This document shows, piece after piece, positions 39,941 to 64,000 of a stretch of DNA of 64,000 nucleotides. The stretch is from Thermoplasmata archaeon (GTDB taxonomy: Archaea > Thermoplasmatota > Thermoplasmata > Lutacidiplasmatales > UBA184). Positions within the stretch are counted from its first letter, which is position 1; each line of letters opens with the position of its first letter. The position numbers and the translations under genes were made by a program. Location: the NCBI GenBank assembly GCA_021798195.1, contig JAJZYH010000005.1, positions 1-64,000 of the forward strand, in the 5' to 3' direction. The notes beneath the pieces were generated by a model. That model was not told the origin of the DNA, did no database searches, and worked only from the letters and a program-made list of their open reading frames with translations.

Positions 39941-40708
39941 TTGAGAGAGAGCGATCGATCCCGAGGAGAATCGAAGACCCGATCCGCGCACCGACCGGTC
40001 CGATGGCTGTCCATCCTGATGGGTCTCGCCATCGTGATGGTGTCCGGGACCGTTCTGGCCGATGTGGTGCTGACCTATTCGGTGGCGAACAACCTCAACA
40101 CCGGAGCGACTTCGCCTTTCACATTCGCGGAGGGCTCCAACTTTGTCACCGCGAACGGGCTCGGCATGCTACCCGCTCCCAGCTGCAACCCGGGTGCCCT
40201 TGGCTCGGATTGCTATCAACTGGACACCACTGTGGTGGGTGTCCAATACGTCCCCACCGAGATCTTGAATGGGTACTCATTTGAAGAGACGGAAGCCACG
40301 ACCGCTGCCTGGACCGTGGGATCGACATCGATCGCCGGGGTGGCTCCCAGCACCGCGCCCACCAACGTCGTGTGCGCGTATGCGTTCATCTCGGACGAGA
40401 CGTTGGCCCCCGGGGATGTCACTGTCTCCACCACATCCACGAGCTGCACAACGCCCAGCCTGTCCCTTACCGGAGCCACCTTGAACGCCGCCTGTGGGAC
40501 CGGCAGCACCGGTGGGATCTCGGCCATCGATCTCACCACGGGGACTGTTGTCGCCACCACGGGCCCATGGACGTGCTCCATCGCCAGTGGTAGCGGCGCG
40601 GCCTCGACGATGGTGCTCACCATCAGCTACTTCATCTACAGCAACACCGGCCGATCCACCACGGCGGCCGCTGGCGCGAGCATCCAGATCAGCCCCGGGA
40701 GCAGCTAA
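39941..40708 (+). CDS. Secreted surface protein A (DVVLTY family, six Cys in mature part)
   Basis: In-frame TTG start; Arg-rich N-region, hydrophobic signal ending GTVLA|DVVLTY; Thr/Ser/Gly-rich beta-type body; paralogous N-terminus with 40865 gene. Confidence 0.75.
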   Translation: MRESDRSRGESKTRSAHRPVRWLSILMGLAIVMVSGTVLADVVLTYSVANNLNTGATSPFTFAEGSNFVTANGLGMLPAPSCNPGALGSDCYQLDTTVVGVQYVPTEILNGYSFEETEATTAAWTVGSTSIAGVAPSTAPTNVVCAYAFISDETLAPGDVTVSTTSTSCTTPSLSLTGATLNAACGTGSTGGISAIDLTTGTVVATTGPWTCSIASGSGAASTMVLTISYFIYSNTGRSTTAAAGASIQISPGSS

Positions 40709-40864
40709 GGACCTCCTCGGTACCCGCGGCGAGACAGCATTCCATGGGTCCCGGAAGGCGTATCCCCGGTCTCTGGGGCCCCAAACCCGTTCTTCCAACC
40801 ATCTCAACTCATGGCTCTGATTGACCGCCTTCGCTCTCTTCCCCCGAAGGAGAAGGTAGAAACG

Positions 40865-41557
40865 ATGAGCAGGATCGGGGCCCACGTTCGGAACTTCATC
40901 CGGGGAAACCGGCGCCTGGGGATCCTCGCGATCGGGATTGCCATCATGGCCATCGTAGGCGTCGGCTCGGCCGACGTGATCCTGACCTACCATTCGGGAA
41001 GTGCCGTCGGTCCGGGCGCACCCTCCCCCTTCCGGTTCGTGAATGGAGCGGATTATCCCACGGCCGCCGCGGAGGGATTCGTGACCAGCTCCTATCCCAA
41101 TGGGGCCCAGGTGTCCGTGAGCACCACCCTCAACGGAGCGGACGGAGCCTACGGTACCTACCTTCTCGATGTCCTGGAAGTCCAGGCGACCGCCACGGAA
41201 ACCAACACCTGGGCGCTGAATCTGGCCGTTTCCACCCCGTTGGGGGCCTCCGGGCTCAATGCGGCGTACCTCTTCTATTGCAGCCAGGCCCCCGCCGGCG
41301 TTCCGCTCACATCGCCTCCGCTCGCGTCGGGGACGGACGCGAATGGGAACCCATGGGCCATCTATCCGGTCTCCTGCCCAGGGACCGGGGGGTACGTCCC
41401 CCTCACCAGCATCGCCAACGGACCGGTGACGGTGACCCTGAACGGCATCCACGCCGGGACCTCCGTGCTGTACATTTCCTTCGGGCTCGCAGTCACCAAC
41501 ACAGGTTCCGTCACGACGACCCCGGGCACAGTGACCCTCCTCGCGTCCTCTTCCTGA
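40865..41557 (+). CDS. Secreted surface protein B (DVILTY family, two Cys in mature part)
   Basis: ATG after ggagaaggt; signal ending GVGSA|DVILTY; aligns to protein A around TSPFTFAEGSNF/PSPFRFVNGADY. Confidence 0.78.
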   Translation: MSRIGAHVRNFIRGNRRLGILAIGIAIMAIVGVGSADVILTYHSGSAVGPGAPSPFRFVNGADYPTAAAEGFVTSSYPNGAQVSVSTTLNGADGAYGTYLLDVLEVQATATETNTWALNLAVSTPLGASGLNAAYLFYCSQAPAGVPLTSPPLASGTDANGNPWAIYPVSCPGTGGYVPLTSIANGPVTVTLNGIHAGTSVLYISFGLAVTNTGSVTTTPGTVTLLASSS

Positions 41558-41653
41558 GCACGGGCGTCCGGGGAGCCGCGCAGGGGGGCCGGAGGCCCAC
41601 GGGAAGGTTTCAGATATCGTACGTGTTCCTAGGGTTGAACAAGAGGACCGGTC

Positions 41654-42829
41654 GTGGTCGAGGAGTCTCGGGATCTGCGGGACAAGGCATTCCTCACCAT
41701 CCTGATCTTGGTGGGAGCTGCGGCCACGGCAAGCGGCCTGGTCCAGATCCTCTATGAGCCCTCACCGTCCCCCGCTGCTCTTTTCGACACGGCTCTGGGG
41801 CTTGCCGTCCTCCTCGTGACCGCCCTGTTCCTTGCCCCCTATGTGTTCCCCAAGACCTTCGGGATCCCCGTCGAAACGGCGGAGGTGGTCTCCCGCCCGT
41901 ACCTTCCTTACGCCATCGGGGCCCGCGCCGCTTCGCCCGCAGCCATGAGATCCCCCTCGTCGGAGCCCATGGCCCTCTCATCCCGCCCGCCGGAGGCGAC
42001 TGGGACCGGGATCCCGGGAGGGGCCACCATCCCCCGCGGAACGCCGCAATCTCCCCAGGAACCCGTGGTCCTGCCGCGGAAACCCATGCCGGACTCGTCC
42101 ATCACCGAGGGGAGGTTCCGCGTCCCGAGGATGCCCGAAAGCCCGCCTCCCCCCGATTACCTTGCGCCGGCCCCGGAGGAGGACGAACAGGGGACCACCC
42201 CGATCCCCCGGGAGGTCGACCAAGCGCTGGAGGACCTGGAGCGGATGGCACGCCGCCTTTCCTCCCCCCTCCCGAACGACGGCGCTTCCCACTCCGTTGC
42301 GGGTGGGACTCCGCGGGGCGCCCCTTCCCCGGCAAGGCAGGTTCCATCGGTGACCATGGGCCCCGAACTTTCCCGCTCGGGAGCTCCCGAACGTGTCCCA
42401 GTCCCTTCCAACACCTCTGCGCGCCCGGGGGAACGGCCGGAGGGGAGCGTTCCGTCCATGGCGCCGCCCGAGACGTTCCGCGAAGACGATGAAGAGTCGG
42501 CGGACCTCGCTCTTCTGGAACGAGAGCTGACACGTGTGCGCGGCATCATCCGGGGATCCCGACAGGCAGGGCAAGTCCCGGACCCGCTCGCACGGCAACT
42601 GCTGGGGGAGGAACCTGAGACGAACCCCATCCCGGAGACTGGGGCGAGGGCCCAGATGGCACGAACCAGCACCGGCCACCCTCCCGTACCTGTTTCCGGC
42701 ACGAAGGACCGTGACGGAGAGAAGGTCCTGGACCCCGAGTTGGAAGGCATCATGGAAGAAGTGGAAGCCTCCGTCCGCCAGGCTCTCCGACGGACGACCC
42801 CCTCCAACTCCCCCGATGGGAAGGCATGA
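41654..42829 (+). CDS. Two-TM membrane protein with long Pro-rich tail
   Basis: Two N-terminal TM helices, long disordered Pro/Ser-rich region, short helical segments. Confidence 0.65.
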   Translation: MVEESRDLRDKAFLTILILVGAAATASGLVQILYEPSPSPAALFDTALGLAVLLVTALFLAPYVFPKTFGIPVETAEVVSRPYLPYAIGARAASPAAMRSPSSEPMALSSRPPEATGTGIPGGATIPRGTPQSPQEPVVLPRKPMPDSSITEGRFRVPRMPESPPPPDYLAPAPEEDEQGTTPIPREVDQALEDLERMARRLSSPLPNDGASHSVAGGTPRGAPSPARQVPSVTMGPELSRSGAPERVPVPSNTSARPGERPEGSVPSMAPPETFREDDEESADLALLERELTRVRGIIRGSRQAGQVPDPLARQLLGEEPETNPIPETGARAQMARTSTGHPPVPVSGTKDRDGEKVLDPELEGIMEEVEASVRQALRRTTPSNSPDGKA

Positions 42830-43212
42830 CGAAGGGAGGCCCTTCGGACCATCCTGGCGGGCTCCTGCTGGAGAGGGGCCGACGCGCCCGGGACCGCGAA
42901 CGCTATCGTGCGGGCTTCCAGATCCTCGCCCTTCTCACCGTCGTCGTGGCCGCCCTCGGGTACCTGGTGAAGGTGCCCCTCTCGGCGGTGGTCACGGCCC
43001 TGGCCGCGGCGGGGATCCTCTTTGCGGTGACCGAGCTGGTCTTCGCCACCGCCCCTCCGGTCGAAGCCACGGGACCCCAACTGCGCGTACTGCCTGGGAG
43101 CGTGGTCCGGTATGAACTCGGCCCCGGGCCGCCCTCAGATACCGGCTTGCGCCAGGATGAGGAGGATCCGGGCCAGCGCGATGACGGTGAGCAGGAACAG
43201 GGGAAGCAGTGA
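42826..43212 (+). CDS. Small two-TM membrane protein
   Basis: ILALLTVVVAALGYLVKVPLSAVVTALAAAGILFAVTELVF; 4-nt overlap with upstream gene. Confidence 0.65.
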   Translation: MTKGGPSDHPGGLLLERGRRARDRERYRAGFQILALLTVVVAALGYLVKVPLSAVVTALAAAGILFAVTELVFATAPPVEATGPQLRVLPGSVVRYELGPGPPSDTGLRQDEEDPGQRDDGEQEQGKQ

Positions 43213-43830
43213 AAGGGCCAGCGCGCGGAGGCCGAAGACCGGACGCTGGAGCCGGGAGCGTTCTTCCAGGGCCAGGCCAAAGACCAGGGCGAGGAGCGCC
43301 ACCGGGGTCAGCACCTGAGCCTCCCCTTGGAACCCGAATGCGGGATCGCTCCCCGCCAGGATCCCCGTCAGCGCCCCCACCACCGAAACGCGGGTCAGGA
43401 TCTCCCGATGGAGAGCGGTGTCCTGAACGAAATACGCGGTGAGGACGAGGGACGATGTGACGGTGCTGGCGACGACCGTCCACAGGAGGACGTTGGTGAG
43501 GCCCGCGGGGGCCTGGCCGGGCGCGGGGAGAACGAACTGGACCACCAGGGAGGGGTAGAAGAGGGAGAAGACCGCCAGGGAAGAGGTGGCCAAGAAGATC
43601 CCCAAGGGAACCCCTGGAAGGGTGTTCACGCTGCAGTCCTCCTCGCATGTGAGGCGCCGGGACAGGCGGTCCTCGTGGATGCACCCGATGCAGCTCTCCC
43701 GTCGGTGAGGGAGGGCGCTCCTCCACGAGGCGCGCCACAGGAGGGTGGTGAGGATCGCCCCGATGCAGAGCGAGGTCAGCACCGGCAACGCGACCGCACC
43801 GACGTTCCCCCAGTCCAGAGTCAGTGACAC
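43135..43830 (-). CDS. Polytopic membrane protein with CIGC and CEEDC motifs (possible VKOR/DsbB-like)
   Basis: Multiple TM helices; CIGCIHEDRLSRRLTCEEDCSVNTLPGVPLGIFL. Confidence 0.6.
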   Translation of the reverse strand: MSLTLDWGNVGAVALPVLTSLCIGAILTTLLWRASWRSALPHRRESCIGCIHEDRLSRRLTCEEDCSVNTLPGVPLGIFLATSSLAVFSLFYPSLVVQFVLPAPGQAPAGLTNVLLWTVVASTVTSSLVLTAYFVQDTALHREILTRVSVVGALTGILAGSDPAFGFQGEAQVLTPVALLALVFGLALEERSRLQRPVFGLRALALSLLPLFLLTVIALARILLILAQAGI

Positions 43831-57225: not shown

Positions 57226-58067
57226 GTGGACTTCTTCCGCCGTCCTCGGCGGGGGCCCAAAATCAGGGTCGATATAAAGATGGCCGCCACCGCCACCCCG
57301 GCGCCCCCCAGGTAGTACGGCGTGTAATCCACGGGGGGCGGCGTCACGTAGAACGAGATGGACTCGGTGGGGCTACCCGTGGAGAAGAGGAGGAGCCCGG
57401 GAGGGCCCATGATCTCCAACGTGAACGTGTGCCATCCCGGCGTGAGGGAAAGGGTGCTGTAGTTGTAGTGGAGGTCGAAGTCCGCCTGCGGAGCCATGGA
57501 AGGGACGGACACGTTCCCCACCACGGTCCCGTCCAGCTGGACCTCCACCTCCACGTGGGAGACGGTGAAGTTGTTGGGGTTCTGGAGCACCGCGTTCACC
57601 GAGTAGGGGAGGACCACCGTGAACGCGGCGGTGAAGTTCTGCGAGGCATTGTCGCTCTTGTTGGAATAGGCGAAGCTGGTCACCTCCACCTCGAGCTCGA
57701 AGTTCCCGGTGATGTTGGGCGCCTGGACGGTCACGTTGGCGGTGTTGTTGACGAACACCCCTTGCGGGGGGGCCACGAGCCCCGAACTGGTGTTGCCTCC
57801 GATGAGGCTCGCGTGGTACGACAGGTTCCCCGTGGTGGACCCGTTGGAGGCCTCGGCGGGTCCCCCGTGGGCCGTGAAGTAGAAGGTCGCCTTGGCGCTG
57901 ATCCCCAGGACGGAAGGACCCTGGATGGTGGCCTGGATCGGGGGGGAGGATGCGGACCGGCTCGCCGGCGCCCCCACGGTGAGCCCGGGGGCCACGAGGA
58001 GCGCGCCCAACGCACAGAGGACCATGGCGAGGGTCCACCCGGAGGGAGTGGTCCGGTGCCGTCTCAT
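57222..58067 (-). CDS. Secreted C-terminally membrane-anchored protein with many N-glycosylation sequons
   Basis: Signal peptide, multiple NxS/T, C-terminal TM YYLGGAGVAVAAIFISTLIL + RRGRRKKST; 4-nt overlaps with the genes on both sides. Confidence 0.75.
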   Translation of the reverse strand: MRRHRTTPSGWTLAMVLCALGALLVAPGLTVGAPASRSASSPPIQATIQGPSVLGISAKATFYFTAHGGPAEASNGSTTGNLSYHASLIGGNTSSGLVAPPQGVFVNNTANVTVQAPNITGNFELEVEVTSFAYSNKSDNASQNFTAAFTVVLPYSVNAVLQNPNNFTVSHVEVEVQLDGTVVGNVSVPSMAPQADFDLHYNYSTLSLTPGWHTFTLEIMGPPGLLLFSTGSPTESISFYVTPPPVDYTPYYLGGAGVAVAAIFISTLILGPRRGRRKKST

Positions 58068-61000
58068 CGCCGCACCCATCGCCGGGTCTTCCACCAGCGA
58101 TATGTCCCGGCCCCCGCCACGATGGCGGCTCCGGGCACGAACACGAGGATGAGGTAGAGCGTGGGGAGCCAGGAGGGGCTCTGGGGGGTCCCCACGGCGG
58201 GTCCGGTCACCGGTGAGATGCTGGGGATGCCCATCGCGGCGCTGGTGGGCAGGGAGAGGGAGACGCTCCGCGATGCGCCGGGGAAGGTCCGGTCCTGCAC
58301 CTGGATCAGGACGCTCCCGGGCGGCACCGGCGCGGACGTCCGTGCGGTGAGCTTCACGATCCCCTGGGTGGGCGGCTGACCGGGGCTCAGGATGAGGGAG
58401 GAGCCCAGGGCCTTCCCCTGCAGCGTCTCCAGGGAGACCGACCAGCCGTCCTGCACCAGCGCGGCCTCGTTGGCCACGACGACGGTGACGTTCTCCGGGG
58501 TGTTCCCGGCCGCGCCCACGTGGAACCCGACCTCCAGGAGGCCGCTCCCCACGATGTTGGAGGAGTCGGTCTCCCCGACGTTCAGGGCATGGATGGGAAG
58601 GATGTTCACCTGGGGGCCCGGGGTGGCGTTGGCAAGGATCCGTTGCGTCCCGTTGAGAAGCGCCTGGAAGACGAGGGGCGCATGGTTCACCATGGTCCCC
58701 ACCGGGACCACCAGGGTGGCTTCCACCTCGGCCGTGGAGTTGGAGAGGCCCGTCCCCAGGGTCACCACGGAAGGTTGGAAGGAGATCTTCAGCGTGGAGG
58801 GGCTTCCGGCAAGCCGGACCCGGAAGGGGGTGTTCCCCGTGTTCCGGAGAACGAGGTTGAACGTGACGTTGGAGCCCACCGACGCCGTCACGGACTGCTG
58901 GCCCACCAGGGTGAGGGAGGCGGTCCGGACGTACTGGGGGACCAGAGGCATCTGGGTGGCCACATTGCCCGCCACGATGGTGACCGTGGCCGTCCCTTGC
59001 ACCGGGACGGTCATCGGGACCGTGGCGCTGGCATTCACCGCCCACGTGCCCTGCGGCAGCACCAGCGCGTACGGGGCGTCCACCGGGACTCCGGAAAAGC
59101 CCAGGGAAGCCGCCGTGCCGGGGATCGTCACGTTGACGAGGAGGGAGGAGGGGACGGAGACCCCCGGGGGCGCGGAGAACGTCAATGTGTCCACCCACCC
59201 GGGGCTCAGCGCCATCGTGACGTTGTCTCCCGTGGCATTGTAGGGCACCGTGAGGGTGGTGAGGTTCGCCGCGGGAACTCCCTGGGGGTCGACCACCGCC
59301 TCCATAGTGTACAATCCGGGGTAGACGGGGATGGTCACGGAGCCCTCCCGGATGCCGATGGAGACCGTGGCGTTGGCGGGGCTACCCAGCTCGTTGAGGT
59401 AGAGGGTGCCGTTGGCGGAGGAAATGGCCCCTCCCTGGCTCAAGCGGATCCGTAGGAGCGTCCGGGATTGCGTCTCCTGGAGGGGAATGGAGCAGGTGGC
59501 CGGGGAGGTGGTGTTGGCGACGCAGGAGATGCCCGTGGGCGTGGTGAACGTCTCGTACCGGAGCACCCCCTGGACCGAGCGCAGGAGGGTCGCGTTGAGC
59601 GTCACGCTCACGGGCAGGTCCAGGGGGAGCACCAGGGTCCCCACGCCTGCGGAGGAGGTGTTGAGGGAGAGAAGGCTCGAATTGGGCCCTTCCACCTGGA
59701 ACGGAACGGAGGCGTTGAGGACGTTCCCCTGAGGGGTCATGAGCACCACGCGGAGGGTCCCCGCGGCTGTGAGCGAGAAGTTGTCCGGAACCATGGTGTC
59801 TTGCGACGTGAGGAGCACGCGGCCCAGGAAGGAGTACTGCGAGGTACCATTGTGGGCGGTGATCCACAGCGTGTAGTTCCCGGCCGGGGCGGTGAAGCCG
59901 GCCGCCAGCTGGGACCCGTTGAGGACGAGCGACGCGTTGGCGGAGATCAGCTGGACTTCGGCGGCGGACCGCCCCGCCGCGGTGGCGTTGGGGAACGTGA
60001 GGGTGGCGTGGTAGGGATGCTGGGCCAGGAAGGACAGGGTCAACTGGGTGGGTCCGTTCCCCGGAGGCAGGGAGAGCGTCACATTGGCCAGGGGCCGGAA
60101 CACTCCGCTCCCGGAGACCGAGGGGGCCCAGCCCGAGATCTGGTAGACGCCCGGTGTCAGGGAGACCGAGACGAACGTCCCCGACGCGGTGGTGTTGGTC
60201 CCGCCCGGACTCGAGGTGGTGAAGTTCAGTTCCGGCGGGACGGTCTCCGTCGGAGGGACCCCTGTCACCGTGACGTTGAGGAGGATGGGGCGGGGGGTGA
60301 GGGAGATCCGGCCCAGCCCGAGGAGTCCCGACTCGTCCAGGGGTCCGTAGGAGGAGGAAAAGAACCCTGTCCGCTCCGCCTGGATGGTGAACGTGGCGTT
60401 CGTGGCGGGCAGGACGTAGGAGAAGGACCCGTTCAACCCGGACACCATGCGGAGGGTGGCGCCGTCCGGGGACTCCCGGATCGCCAAGGAGACCCTGGGA
60501 ACGGTAAGGAAGGTCCCCGAATGGGTGAGGTATCCCGTGGTCCCGCTGAAGGTGATGGCCCGGGTCAGGGAAAGGTCGAGGTGCGTGGGGCCGAGGACAT
60601 CCAGCGCCGCAAGGGCGGCCTGGGCGAGGGAGGGGGACTGGGCATCGTAGGTGGCGAGAAGGCTGTAGGTTCCCGAAGGCACGTAGAGAGAGTATGCACC
60701 GGTGGCGTTGGAGAGGGCAGTGAGGGTGGCCCCGGTGGCCGTCTCCAGAGTGAGGAGGACTCCGGGGGATCCGGTGGACGTCCCCGCGAGGGAGGTGACG
60801 CCGGACAGCACCTGGGCGGGCTCCAGCGAGAGGGGAGGGATCACGAACTGGCCGGGGGCCCGGTCCAGGGCGACGTTGCCGATGCCGGCGAGCCAGGTCC
60901 CGTTCTCCGCCCCCATGGCGTAGACGGACCAGTTCCCCAACCCCAGGCGGGCCGTCACGACGCCGCTCCCGTTGGTCAGGAAGACGGCCGTGGCGTTGGG

Positions 61001-64000
61001 GGCGTTGGGGATGGGGTCGAACCGCACGGGGATGTTGGGGACGGGCCGACCCTGGTAGAGCACCACCATGCGGACCTCCACCGGGAGCGAGAGGGTGAGT
61101 GAGAGCGTGGCATTCTGGCCCTCCTTGAGGAGGCTCACGGTCTGGGGCGCGGAACTGTAGCCATTGGGACCCAAGGCGACCGCCGAATAGTTCCCGGGAA
61201 GGATGGGGCTCACGGTGAAGTTCCCCGCCCCGTTGGTGGTGACCGTGGAGGGGGGGCCCGCTGTGGAGAGAGGGGTCAGCGTCACTGTGACCCCCGCGGC
61301 CGGCCGGCCATTCCCGTACTGGACCGCGCCGGCGACATGGGCCGGTGTGAGACCCTCGTTCTGAGTCACGGCAGCCCCTGTCCCCACGGAGACCGGGGAC
61401 TGGGGGAAGGAGATGGTGCCCAGCCGCAGGGTCACGTTGTAGCTTCCGGGGGTCACCCCCGTAAGATCGTAGGTCCCGCTGGCGTCGGTGACGGTGCGGT
61501 AGGTGAGGCCCAGGCCGTTGGAGAGGGTCACGTTGATCCCCGGGATCACCTCGTCCACGGTGGAGCTGTAGGTGGGGCTGTTGGCGAGGTTCCAGTAGAT
61601 GGTCCCGCTCACGCTGCCCGTCTTGAGGACGATAGGGACCTCTAGGGGGGGAGAGCCGTAGGTCTCGGCGAGGTAGCTGGGGACGGTCATGTTGACCTCG
61701 GTGAGCACGTTCGCCCCCGTCTGGGTGAGCCCCTGGAGGGCGCCGTAGCTCGCCACCAGGGTCACGTTCCCCGGTGGGGCAAGGAGGCTGTAGCGGCCGT
61801 CGGGCCCGGTCACCGTGGTCATGTGCGGGATCCCCCACGAGTCCAGCACCGTGACCCGGACCCCCGGTGCCGGCACACCCGTGGAGCTCACCACCTGCCC
61901 CTGGATCGTGGCCCCGGGATAGTACTCCAGGAACGTCTCCCCCGCGCTGTAGTACTGCAGGGGGGAGGTATCCGCGGTCCCGTTGTTCGCCTTCTGGTAA
62001 TCCAGGGCCGTGTTCAGGTTCACCGGAACGAAGCAGTTGGGATGGGCCTGGTAGTCGGTGTAGGGGCACCAGTAGGCGGTCCGGTACGCGAGGACGAAAT
62101 GCTGGAGCATCCATCCGGGCTCCGGGTTCGAGGTGGAGAGCCCCGGCGAGAGGCCGGGGATCCCGCTCCCCGCCCCCACGTCCGTCCCGTTGTACCCCAC
62201 GAAGATCCGATAGATCATGCTGTTGTAGAACGGGGCGTAGTAGACGATCTGGGGATTCCCCACCTGGACCGTGGAGGGCTGGCCCCCCAAGGGGTAGGTG
62301 TTGCCGTTGGACCCGGTCACGTAGACCTGGAAGTACTGGGTGGGAACTCCGCCCGGGCTGATCACCCGGTCGGTGAGGTCCGCGGGCGCGTAGTAGATCC
62401 CGGTGTTGGACCCGGAGGTGGGGAAGAGGCGGCTGTCCACCATGGCGTAGCGGATGCTCCAGCCGGTGTAGGTCTGGACGTCCTGGTAGACCCGGACCAC
62501 GCCGTTCTCCGAGAGCGTACTCGCGAGGTAGTTGCTCACCACGTCGTACATGGCGTTCTCGGCGTCGAGGTGGCTCGGGTCGAACTGTCCGTAGATGCTG
62601 GGATGGGCGAGGACGATGCCCACGTCCTGGGAGTTGTTGGCGAGATAGGTGTGCAGGAGCGTGAGGTTCACCCCGTCCGCGGCGAGGCGCTCGTTGAGCC
62701 CCGCGGGCAGGTAGGGGAGGCCCGTGACGTGCTCCTCCGAATAGAGGAGGTCCGTGGCGAGGACCCCGATGGCCAGGGATTCGTTCTGGGCGAGGAGGAA
62801 GTTCCCCGCCGGGTCGATCCCCTCCTGGAAGTTGTCCGCCACGGTGGGATGCTGCCCCTCGTCGACGGCCTGGAACCCGTAGTCCCACCAACTGATGAAG
62901 GCGGGACGTTGGGCCGGAGGGAGCTGCGTATCTTGCGTGGCGAACCAATTGTACCCCGCTTCGTCGTACTGCTGGGGGGTGTCGGTCTGGATGCCGGCGG
63001 CCCCCAGGTAATAGCCCGACTGGTTCGCGGCGGACGGCTGCAGGAAGGACGGGATGGTGTCGACGATCTGCTGGTTGTACTGGGACTTCACGTTGTAGGG
63101 GATGCCCGCGTCGACGGCGTACCACGCATTGGGGAGGATCACCCCGATGACGATGAACACCACCACGAGATGCCGGACCTTCACCGAGCGGCGGAACGCG
63201 GACCACCAGCCTCCCTGGCTCCCCAGGGACACGATGTTCCGGCGGAGCTGGGGGTACCCCATGCGCCCCAGGGCGAACACGAGCACCTCGGCGGGCAGGA
63301 GGGCGAAGACGGGCGAGCCCAGGAGGAAGAACTTGGCCGCCGAGACCGGCAGGTAGATGCCCAGGAGGCCGAAGACCACCATGAAGATGTGTTCCCGGCG
63401 GAACCGGAAGCTGTAGAGATACGCGAGGAAGAACGCGAGCCCCACGAACGCGAGGAAGAACGTCACCACCCCGTAGCTCACGATGAGCGCATCGAAGCTG
63501 GGAGCCTGCGCCTCCGCGACGGTGCTGTAGATGAGCGTCTTCACGAAGTAGCCCTGGCCGGTGAGGACGGCGTTGAAGTAGCCCTTGTTGTAGACGTAGA
63601 GGAGCCCGCCGGCCCCGGCGAGGCTCCCGAAGAGCACGGGGACCGAGACCACCCAGGGGGTGTCCCGGAGCATGAGGAAGGGGATGGTGAACAGGAGCCC
63701 GCCGAAGAAGATGAGCAGGGGGACGGTGAACCAGAACGCGAACTCCTGCTGGACGTAGTAGTAGGGCATCGCCATGGGGAAGCCCACGAATCCCACGATG
63801 AGGGTGGAGACGAAGAGGCCGAACGAGTCCACCCGCCGGACCCGTTCGATGATGAGGGTGATGGCGTAGAAGATCACGATGGTGGCGATGACGTAGGTGT
63901 ATCCCTGCCACGCCAGGATGGAAGCACCCAGCACGACCCCGGTGAAGATGGACCAGTTGACGCTATTGCGCTCCACCCGCAGGAACTGCGTGAACCCGTG
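58064..64000 (-). CDS. aglB: AglB/STT3 oligosaccharyltransferase with a giant extracellular repeat extension (5' end beyond window)
   Basis: WWDYG motif at 62876-62890 after multiple TM helices; frame is open through the right edge (HGFTQFLRVERN...); tandem carboxypeptidase-regulatory-like repeats and C-terminal TM. Confidence 0.92.
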   Translation of the reverse strand, partial: HGFTQFLRVERNSVNWSIFTGVVLGASILAWQGYTYVIATIVIFYAITLIIERVRRVDSFGLFVSTLIVGFVGFPMAMPYYYVQQEFAFWFTVPLLIFFGGLLFTIPFLMLRDTPWVVSVPVLFGSLAGAGGLLYVYNKGYFNAVLTGQGYFVKTLIYSTVAEAQAPSFDALIVSYGVVTFFLAFVGLAFFLAYLYSFRFRREHIFMVVFGLLGIYLPVSAAKFFLLGSPVFALLPAEVLVFALGRMGYPQLRRNIVSLGSQGGWWSAFRRSVKVRHLVVVFIVIGVILPNAWYAVDAGIPYNVKSQYNQQIVDTIPSFLQPSAANQSGYYLGAAGIQTDTPQQYDEAGYNWFATQDTQLPPAQRPAFISWWDYGFQAVDEGQHPTVADNFQEGIDPAGNFLLAQNESLAIGVLATDLLYSEEHVTGLPYLPAGLNERLAADGVNLTLLHTYLANNSQDVGIVLAHPSIYGQFDPSHLDAENAMYDVVSNYLASTLSENGVVRVYQDVQTYTGWSIRYAMVDSRLFPTSGSNTGIYYAPADLTDRVISPGGVPTQYFQVYVTGSNGNTYPLGGQPSTVQVGNPQIVYYAPFYNSMIYRIFVGYNGTDVGAGSGIPGLSPGLSTSNPEPGWMLQHFVLAYRTAYWCPYTDYQAHPNCFVPVNLNTALDYQKANNGTADTSPLQYYSAGETFLEYYPGATIQGQVVSSTGVPAPGVRVTVLDSWGIPHMTTVTGPDGRYSLLAPPGNVTLVASYGALQGLTQTGANVLTEVNMTVPSYLAETYGSPPLEVPIVLKTGSVSGTIYWNLANSPTYSSTVDEVIPGINVTLSNGLGLTYRTVTDASGTYDLTGVTPGSYNVTLRLGTISFPQSPVSVGTGAAVTQNEGLTPAHVAGAVQYGNGRPAAGVTVTLTPLSTAGPPSTVTTNGAGNFTVSPILPGNYSAVALGPNGYSSAPQTVSLLKEGQNATLSLTLSLPVEVRMVVLYQGRPVPNIPVRFDPIPNAPNATAVFLTNGSGVVTARLGLGNWSVYAMGAENGTWLAGIGNVALDRAPGQFVIPPLSLEPAQVLSGVTSLAGTSTGSPGVLLTLETATGATLTALSNATGAYSLYVPSGTYSLLATYDAQSPSLAQAALAALDVLGPTHLDLSLTRAITFSGTTGYLTHSGTFLTVPRVSLAIRESPDGATLRMVSGLNGSFSYVLPATNATFTIQAERTGFFSSSYGPLDESGLLGLGRISLTPRPILLNVTVTGVPPTETVPPELNFTTSSPGGTNTTASGTFVSVSLTPGVYQISGWAPSVSGSGVFRPLANVTLSLPPGNGPTQLTLSFLAQHPYHATLTFPNATAAGRSAAEVQLISANASLVLNGSQLAAGFTAPAGNYTLWITAHNGTSQYSFLGRVLLTSQDTMVPDNFSLTAAGTLRVVLMTPQGNVLNASVPFQVEGPNSSLLSLNTSSAGVGTLVLPLDLPVSVTLNATLLRSVQGVLRYETFTTPTGISCVANTTSPATCSIPLQETQSRTLLRIRLSQGGAISSANGTLYLNELGSPANATVSIGIREGSVTIPVYPGLYTMEAVVDPQGVPAANLTTLTVPYNATGDNVTMALSPGWVDTLTFSAPPGVSVPSSLLVNVTIPGTAASLGFSGVPVDAPYALVLPQGTWAVNASATVPMTVPVQGTATVTIVAGNVATQMPLVPQYVRTASLTLVGQQSVTASVGSNVTFNLVLRNTGNTPFRVRLAGSPSTLKISFQPSVVTLGTGLSNSTAEVEATLVVPVGTMVNHAPLVFQALLNGTQRILANATPGPQVNILPIHALNVGETDSSNIVGSGLLEVGFHVGAAGNTPENVTVVVANEAALVQDGWSVSLETLQGKALGSSLILSPGQPPTQGIVKLTARTSAPVPPGSVLIQVQDRTFPGASRSVSLSLPTSAAMGIPSISPVTGPAVGTPQSPSWLPTLYLILVFVPGAAIVAGAGTYRWWKTRRWVRR

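Follow-up and report, generated by a model that had tools for sequence, protein, structure and literature searches.

A candidate donor-strand filament gene cluster in Thermoplasmata archaea

The Sulfolobus thread is built from Saci_0406, which is cleaved at LVA/DV and polymerizes by donor-strand complementation; a paralogue of the same fold, Saci_0405, is encoded next to it, and an Asp24-Asn57 isopeptide bond has been proposed (PMC9715654, PMC11607397). Thread homologues were reported in Crenarchaea only, the assembly pathway was given as unknown and the search for its machinery was called paramount (PMC9715654). AbpA of Pyrobaculum calidifontis (7ueg) is described in the literature as a donor-strand polymer. 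For TasA and TapA of Bacillus, donor-strand exchange with a paralogous starter protein was described (PMC9674648, PMC10151520). Here, a cluster of five genes (P1 to P5, Table 1) from a soil archaeon of the Thermoplasmata is compared with these systems. It is located in a stretch of 64,000 nucleotides (the window) of contig JAJZYH010000005.1 (C35 in our numbering), which belongs to a 1.75-Mb archaeal metagenome-assembled genome (MAG). The cluster probably builds a thin archaeal extracellular donor-strand filament of the AbpA/thread kind from a disulfide-rich new protein family, with P3 to P5 as candidate assembly or anchoring proteins.

P1 and P2 are secreted paralogues with an AbpA fold match

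Homologues were searched for among the six-frame open reading frames (ORFs) of the window region and of the loci of relatives. Relatives named by a scan of genome contigs with alignment A4 are Thermoplasmata MAGs, including AcS5-116 and SubAcS15-120 (Lutacidiplasmatales genomes of PMC9287336). That P1 and P2 are true paralogues is shown by mutual retrieval at E 7e-6 to 3e-5 (search per genome), and iterated searches begun from either one converged on a common set of 36 ORFs from 18 loci. The same searches returned 14 members for P3 and 12 for P5. Both P1 and P2 consist of a basic N-region, one hydrophobic helix and a signal-peptidase-I-type site, followed by the mature start DV(V/I)LTY; in nearly every family member, the A|D cleavage site follows the helix. 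Conservation in the family is highest at this start and in the block (S)PF.F..G.N(Y/F). In alignment A3, V2 and F20 are invariant, and D1 (at least 90%), L4, P19, G25 and N27 nearly so. An initial annotation of the window had pointed out the tandem secreted pair, its cleavage and strand motif and the alignable block, all of which are borne out by mutual retrieval and by conservation across the family.

Translation of P1 from a TTG codon places 40 amino acids ahead of the cleavage site and matches ATG-started orthologues (LRESDRSRGES... compared with MVNERDRSQS...). For P2, a start at 40865 is more likely, with 40811 also possible. In a scan with Pfam and NCBIfam models, P1, P2, P3, P4 and P5 were all without a match at the curated cut-off.

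In a tree of 46 members, P2-type proteins form one clade (11 rows, support 100/99, one member per genome), P1-type proteins another (17 rows, support 95/95) and the second gene of genus g3 a separate one. The two paralogues are thus old and have been retained, which suggests that P1 and P2 have two different roles. In two genomes of genus g4, an extra secreted gene lies divergent and upstream of P1 (L119:2-214 and L118:5942-6484, both minus strand). The protein of L119 reads ...SSDVALRYNLAGRVTG and also has a DV..Y start; it is perhaps a minor or tip subunit.

Basic N-regions and hydrophobic helices in secreted proteins would likewise fit a type IV pilus or archaellum-like system, in which P1 and P2 would be class III prepilins with the helix retained in the filament core, and type II/IV secretion ATPases (PF00437) are encoded elsewhere in the genome. 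Such an origin is extremely improbable. There is no prepilin-peptidase-type site before the helix, and cleavage is placed behind it. The cluster itself is without an ATPase or platform gene, both PF00437 matches of the genome being on contig C52, and the fold match is to an all-beta donor-strand pilin.

The mature parts of P1 and P2 were modelled with AlphaFold from alignments of 28 and 25 sequences, respectively, with predicted template modelling scores (pTM) of 0.83 and 0.73. The predicted folds consist wholly or almost wholly of beta structure, and low confidence falls on the first 8 to 16 residues, the N-terminal strand. When 350,542 PDB chains were searched with Foldseek, AbpA (7ueg_A) was the best match of both models at a probability of 1.00 (P1, E 1.8e-4; P2, E 5.4e-3; TM-score about 0.5), and P1 had no other match below E 0.001. 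AbpA shares with P1 and P2 the all-beta, secreted subunit. It is from a different phylum, gave no sequence-profile match and has 10-13% sequence identity in the fold alignment; P1 and P2 are the cysteine-containing ones.

The next, weaker fold matches were FimA for both proteins and, for P2, Pyrodictium CanA as well. FimA of type 1 pili has an immunoglobulin-like domain that lacks a strand and matched with weak scores. Its chaperone-usher system differs from the cluster, which contains neither chaperone nor usher (P3 to P5 being transmembrane proteins without family match), and archaea have no outer membrane. Sugar-binding modules were also among the weaker matches, and the hydrophobic helix of P1 and P2 could serve as an anchor. 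Both might accordingly be read as monomeric or membrane-anchored secreted beta-sandwich proteins (binding or carbohydrate-binding proteins, or coat proteins that keep an uncleaved helix) beside a sensor or transport module formed by P3 to P5. We consider this unlikely, as a donor-strand pilin is the best fold match of both paralogues, with FimA as the next meaningful one. Moreover, the most conserved segment is a short strand after an A-x-A-like site, which would be free to vary in a simple anchored protein.

With TasA/TapA (camelysin, PF12389), the working principle is probably shared, namely an N-terminal donor strand and two related secreted proteins. In two Thermoplasmata relatives with Thermoplasmatales-type genomes, signal-peptidase-I-like genes lie a few kilobases from thread-like pilins (L096:5738-6532 and L090:11015-11809; TIGR02228, E about 3e-4, below the curated cut-off). 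A true biofilm-matrix operon of the SipW-TasA-TapA kind is nevertheless very improbable: PF12389 had no match in 61 genomes including that of the window, P1 and P2 match no family model, TasA was absent among the fold matches listed, and the cluster contains neither SipW nor any other signal peptidase gene. The initial annotation had placed the proteins in the donor-strand class of TasA/camelysin and archaeal bundling pili. As regards the fold class, this guess receives good support from the AbpA match, on the bundling-pilus side, and structure prediction, one of the tests that it had named, spoke for it; membership in TasA/camelysin did not hold up, and the nearest kin are AbpA and the thread.

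A possible sequence relation to the Sulfolobus thread

Among 177,635 PDB sequences, profile A1 (P1/P2) ranked Saci_0406 (7pnb) second, at E 0.19 and aligned over the ADVI cleavage site. Profile A7 (other Thermoplasmata relatives) ranked it first, at E 0.039 over residues 1-130, with the alignment in register at the signal peptide, the ADV site and the F-x-x-QP region. Comparison with hhalign shows A1 to be homologous to A7 (probability 99.2%, E 1.2e-19). Pairwise hhalign to Saci_0406 gave P 5.5e-5, spanning 32 columns. In the converse search of 3,748 ORFs with a Saci_0406 fragment, 14 of the 15 best matches were family members. The thread, which the initial annotation had not named, therefore appears to be the closest system by sequence.

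Shared with Saci_0406/Saci_0405 are a signal peptidase I site followed by a DVI-type strand, a tandem paralogue of the same fold and the lack of a Pfam domain; most loci of the cluster have both P1 and P2. The thread differs by five N-glycans per subunit, the proposed isopeptide bond and a YYY motif, compared with 0-4 N-x-S/T sequons, an even number of cysteines and LTY in the P1/P2 family. A conserved Asp24-Asn57 isopeptide bond in the P1/P2 family was considered and rejected, since nothing is conserved at the position aligned to Asn57.

Gene neighbourhood and the membrane proteins P3 to P5

Within one Thermoplasmata family (f1), taken here to be that of the Lutacidiplasmatales, the cluster was found in several genera and in differing genomic contexts. 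P3 and P5 orthologues adjoin P1/P2 in most loci, and the order P1-P2-P3-P5, with P5 convergent, is maintained next to RNase H and topoisomerase VI genes in genera g1, g2 and g7 and in other surroundings in g3 and g4. Because gene order is kept among quite different flanking genes, the cluster travels as a unit. In genus g2, the P2-type gene has been relocated several kilobases away, while P1, P3 and P5 remain together. Neighbourhood conservation, which the initial annotation had named as a check, is thus strong across genera and contexts.

P5 is present in 19 of the 103 genomes of family f1. The P1/P2 profile matched 22 of these 103. Three of the matches are weak; the genomes with the 19 strong ones (E < 1e-30) coincide exactly with those that have P5. 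This also holds within genus g4, where most genomes are without the cluster: strong P1/P2 matches were obtained in six genomes there, and these are the six with P5. Full agreement of 19 in 103 would arise by chance about once in 10^20, a figure uncorrected for kinship that would become much less extreme with correction. As P5 is found in exactly the pilin-bearing genomes of the family, it is a concrete candidate for assembly machinery.

The P3 head was found in 18 of the 19 genomes with P1/P2 and P5, and in two genomes without pilins; strict linkage of P3 to the pilins was therefore rejected. In these two genomes, which also are without P5, the P3-like heads with two transmembrane segments (L116:8184-8792, minus strand; G048:C10:120700-120894) stand in an unrelated conserved neighbourhood. 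Sequence search had suggested P4 to be an orphan or spurious ORF, which was rejected because P4-like ORFs with two transmembrane segments come directly after P3 in 10 of the 13 loci that were checked, that of the window among them; they are missing in genus g4 only. These counterparts have a recognisable pattern, F-R-G...T-x-A-V-A-G-L-T / ILY-x-V-x-E-W. Both downstream proteins had been described in the initial annotation, as had a convergent P5 with CIGC and CEEDC motifs, and all five ORFs were located where it had placed them. The conservation of the set as a whole goes well beyond what chance would give.

Table 1. Features of the cluster in the window.
Feature	Coordinates	Strand	Description
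P1	39941..40708	+	secreted donor-strand-type pilin (candidate), variable paralogue; VLA|D site, mature DVVLTY, six Cys
P1 mature N-terminal strand DVVLTY (candidate donor strand)	40061..40078	+	directly after signal-peptidase-I-type site; low predicted local distance difference test (pLDDT) in monomer model
P2	40865..41557	+	secreted donor-strand-type pilin (candidate), conserved paralogue; GSA|D site, mature DVILTY, with two Cys
P2 mature N-terminal strand DVILTY (candidate donor strand)	40973..40990	+	low pLDDT in residues 1-16
P3	41654..42829	+	hairpin of two transmembrane segments and long Pro/Glu-rich tail (predicted cytoplasmic), charged end segment
P4	42826..43212	+	small protein with two transmembrane segments; start overlaps P3 stop (ATGA); weak sequence/positional counterparts in 9 other loci
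P5	43135..43830	-	convergent membrane protein with 5-6 transmembrane segments; C-x2-C-x11-C-x3-C in basic (predicted cytoplasmic) loop after first segment

An RNase H gene flanks the cluster upstream, and genes for topoisomerase VI B and 5-formyltetrahydrofolate (5-FTHF) cyclo-ligase flank it downstream. A promoter scan yielded no bacterial-type promoter, as expected in an archaeon. At the end of the window (58064-64000, minus strand), a large incomplete membrane-protein ORF resembles STT3/AglB oligosaccharyltransferase by eye.

With a simple hydropathy scan, five transmembrane segments were counted in P5 of the window and six in most orthologues. The cysteines (CIGC...CEEDC) are invariant in 12 of 12 orthologues and are predicted to be cytoplasmic by the positive-inside rule, since their loop of 42 residues contains 5-9 Lys/Arg and the loops of the opposite side few or none. 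With this placement, P5 is thought unlikely to be a DsbB-like thiol oxidase. A PDB search with P5 returned nothing useful.

Pilin profile A7 matched 40 of 300 genomes of the class. In many loci of family f19, a protein of about 227-290 amino acids with six transmembrane segments is encoded within about 3 kb of the pilins. Its plan of one transmembrane segment, a long loop and five further segments is that of P5, and size, spacing of the segments and charge pattern agree. Sequence homology of P5 to these f19 proteins (A8, A10) or to those of family f11 was not supported (best P 0.18 to 0.19), and shared ancestry of P5 and the f19 proteins is offered only as a hypothesis.

Further arrangements were observed in these families. 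In the complete f19 genome G136 (1,564,906 bases), a pilin gene, a signal-peptidase-like gene (TIGR02228, below cut-off) and a gene of the six-segment protein lie within a few kilobases. A second type of f19 locus (L134-L139) consists of a pilin with an A|AVIV start, a second AVIV/EVII paralogue and then the six-segment protein. In f11, the pilin is followed by a secreted protein of 490-500 amino acids with a C-terminal hydrophobic segment (L088:1237-2715; L093:801-2309, minus strand) and then by a multi-transmembrane protein of roughly 205 amino acids; these are possibly tip adhesin and platform, respectively.

A proposed disulfide-rich filament and its assembly

The number of cysteines in the mature part is even (2, 4 or 6) in all 31 aligned members of family f1. 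N-x-S/T sequons are absent from P1 and P2 and average 0.65 per protein in the family. In contrast, the 16 members from other Thermoplasmata lack cysteine altogether and average four sequons. VKOR (PF07884), a disulfide-forming enzyme, was found in 35 of 37 f1 genomes tested, compared with 3 of 24 others in the class. On these grounds, it is a reasonable but unproved idea that, in this lineage, disulfides stand in for much of the protective glycan coat known from the Sulfolobus thread.

In the assembly proposed here, Sec would export P1 and P2, and signal peptidase I would cleave them at A|D. With its DV(V/I)LTY strand released in this way, each subunit would occupy a gap in the beta-sandwich of its neighbour, so that a fibre forms head to tail. 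One of the two paralogues is probably the main subunit and the other a cap, base or initiator, as with Saci_0406/Saci_0405 or TasA/TapA. The membrane proteins P3, P4 and, most of all, P5 are likely to serve in receiving, assembling or anchoring this fibre.

Several results weigh against a filament of this kind. Structural similarity is moderate, with TM-scores of about 0.5 and Foldseek E-values of 1e-3 to 1e-4, and 7pnb was not among the 50 Foldseek matches listed. Taken singly, the matches to the thread among PDB sequences are weak, and they hinge on the region of signal peptide and N-strand: profiles of the mature part alone did not retrieve 7pnb there, and the mature Saci_0406 fragment alone had no clear preference for the family. 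The isopeptide partner Asn57 is not conserved, the family Asn27 being aligned instead with Asn51 of Saci_0406 in the A7 alignment. Counts of P5 and P1/P2 co-occurrence carry no correction for phylogeny. VKOR was not found in the incomplete genome of the window, and genomes that lack the cluster have it too.

A wider proposal, that P5 and the f19-type proteins represent one dedicated assembly platform for donor-strand filaments, with P3 and P4 as lineage-specific partners and with disulfide-stapled fibres in the Lutacidiplasmatales family, is put forward tentatively and must be regarded as rather doubtful. The filament kind itself is known, and the interest is mainly in P5 and in the protein of the same topology beside the pilins of related Thermoplasmata. 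The cluster would extend this filament type to another phylum, including genomes of soil archaea that are predicted to be without archaella (PMC9287336). If the proposal is true, the platform of P5 and its six-segment counterparts would be the first machinery to be identified for the assembly of thread/AbpA-type filaments.

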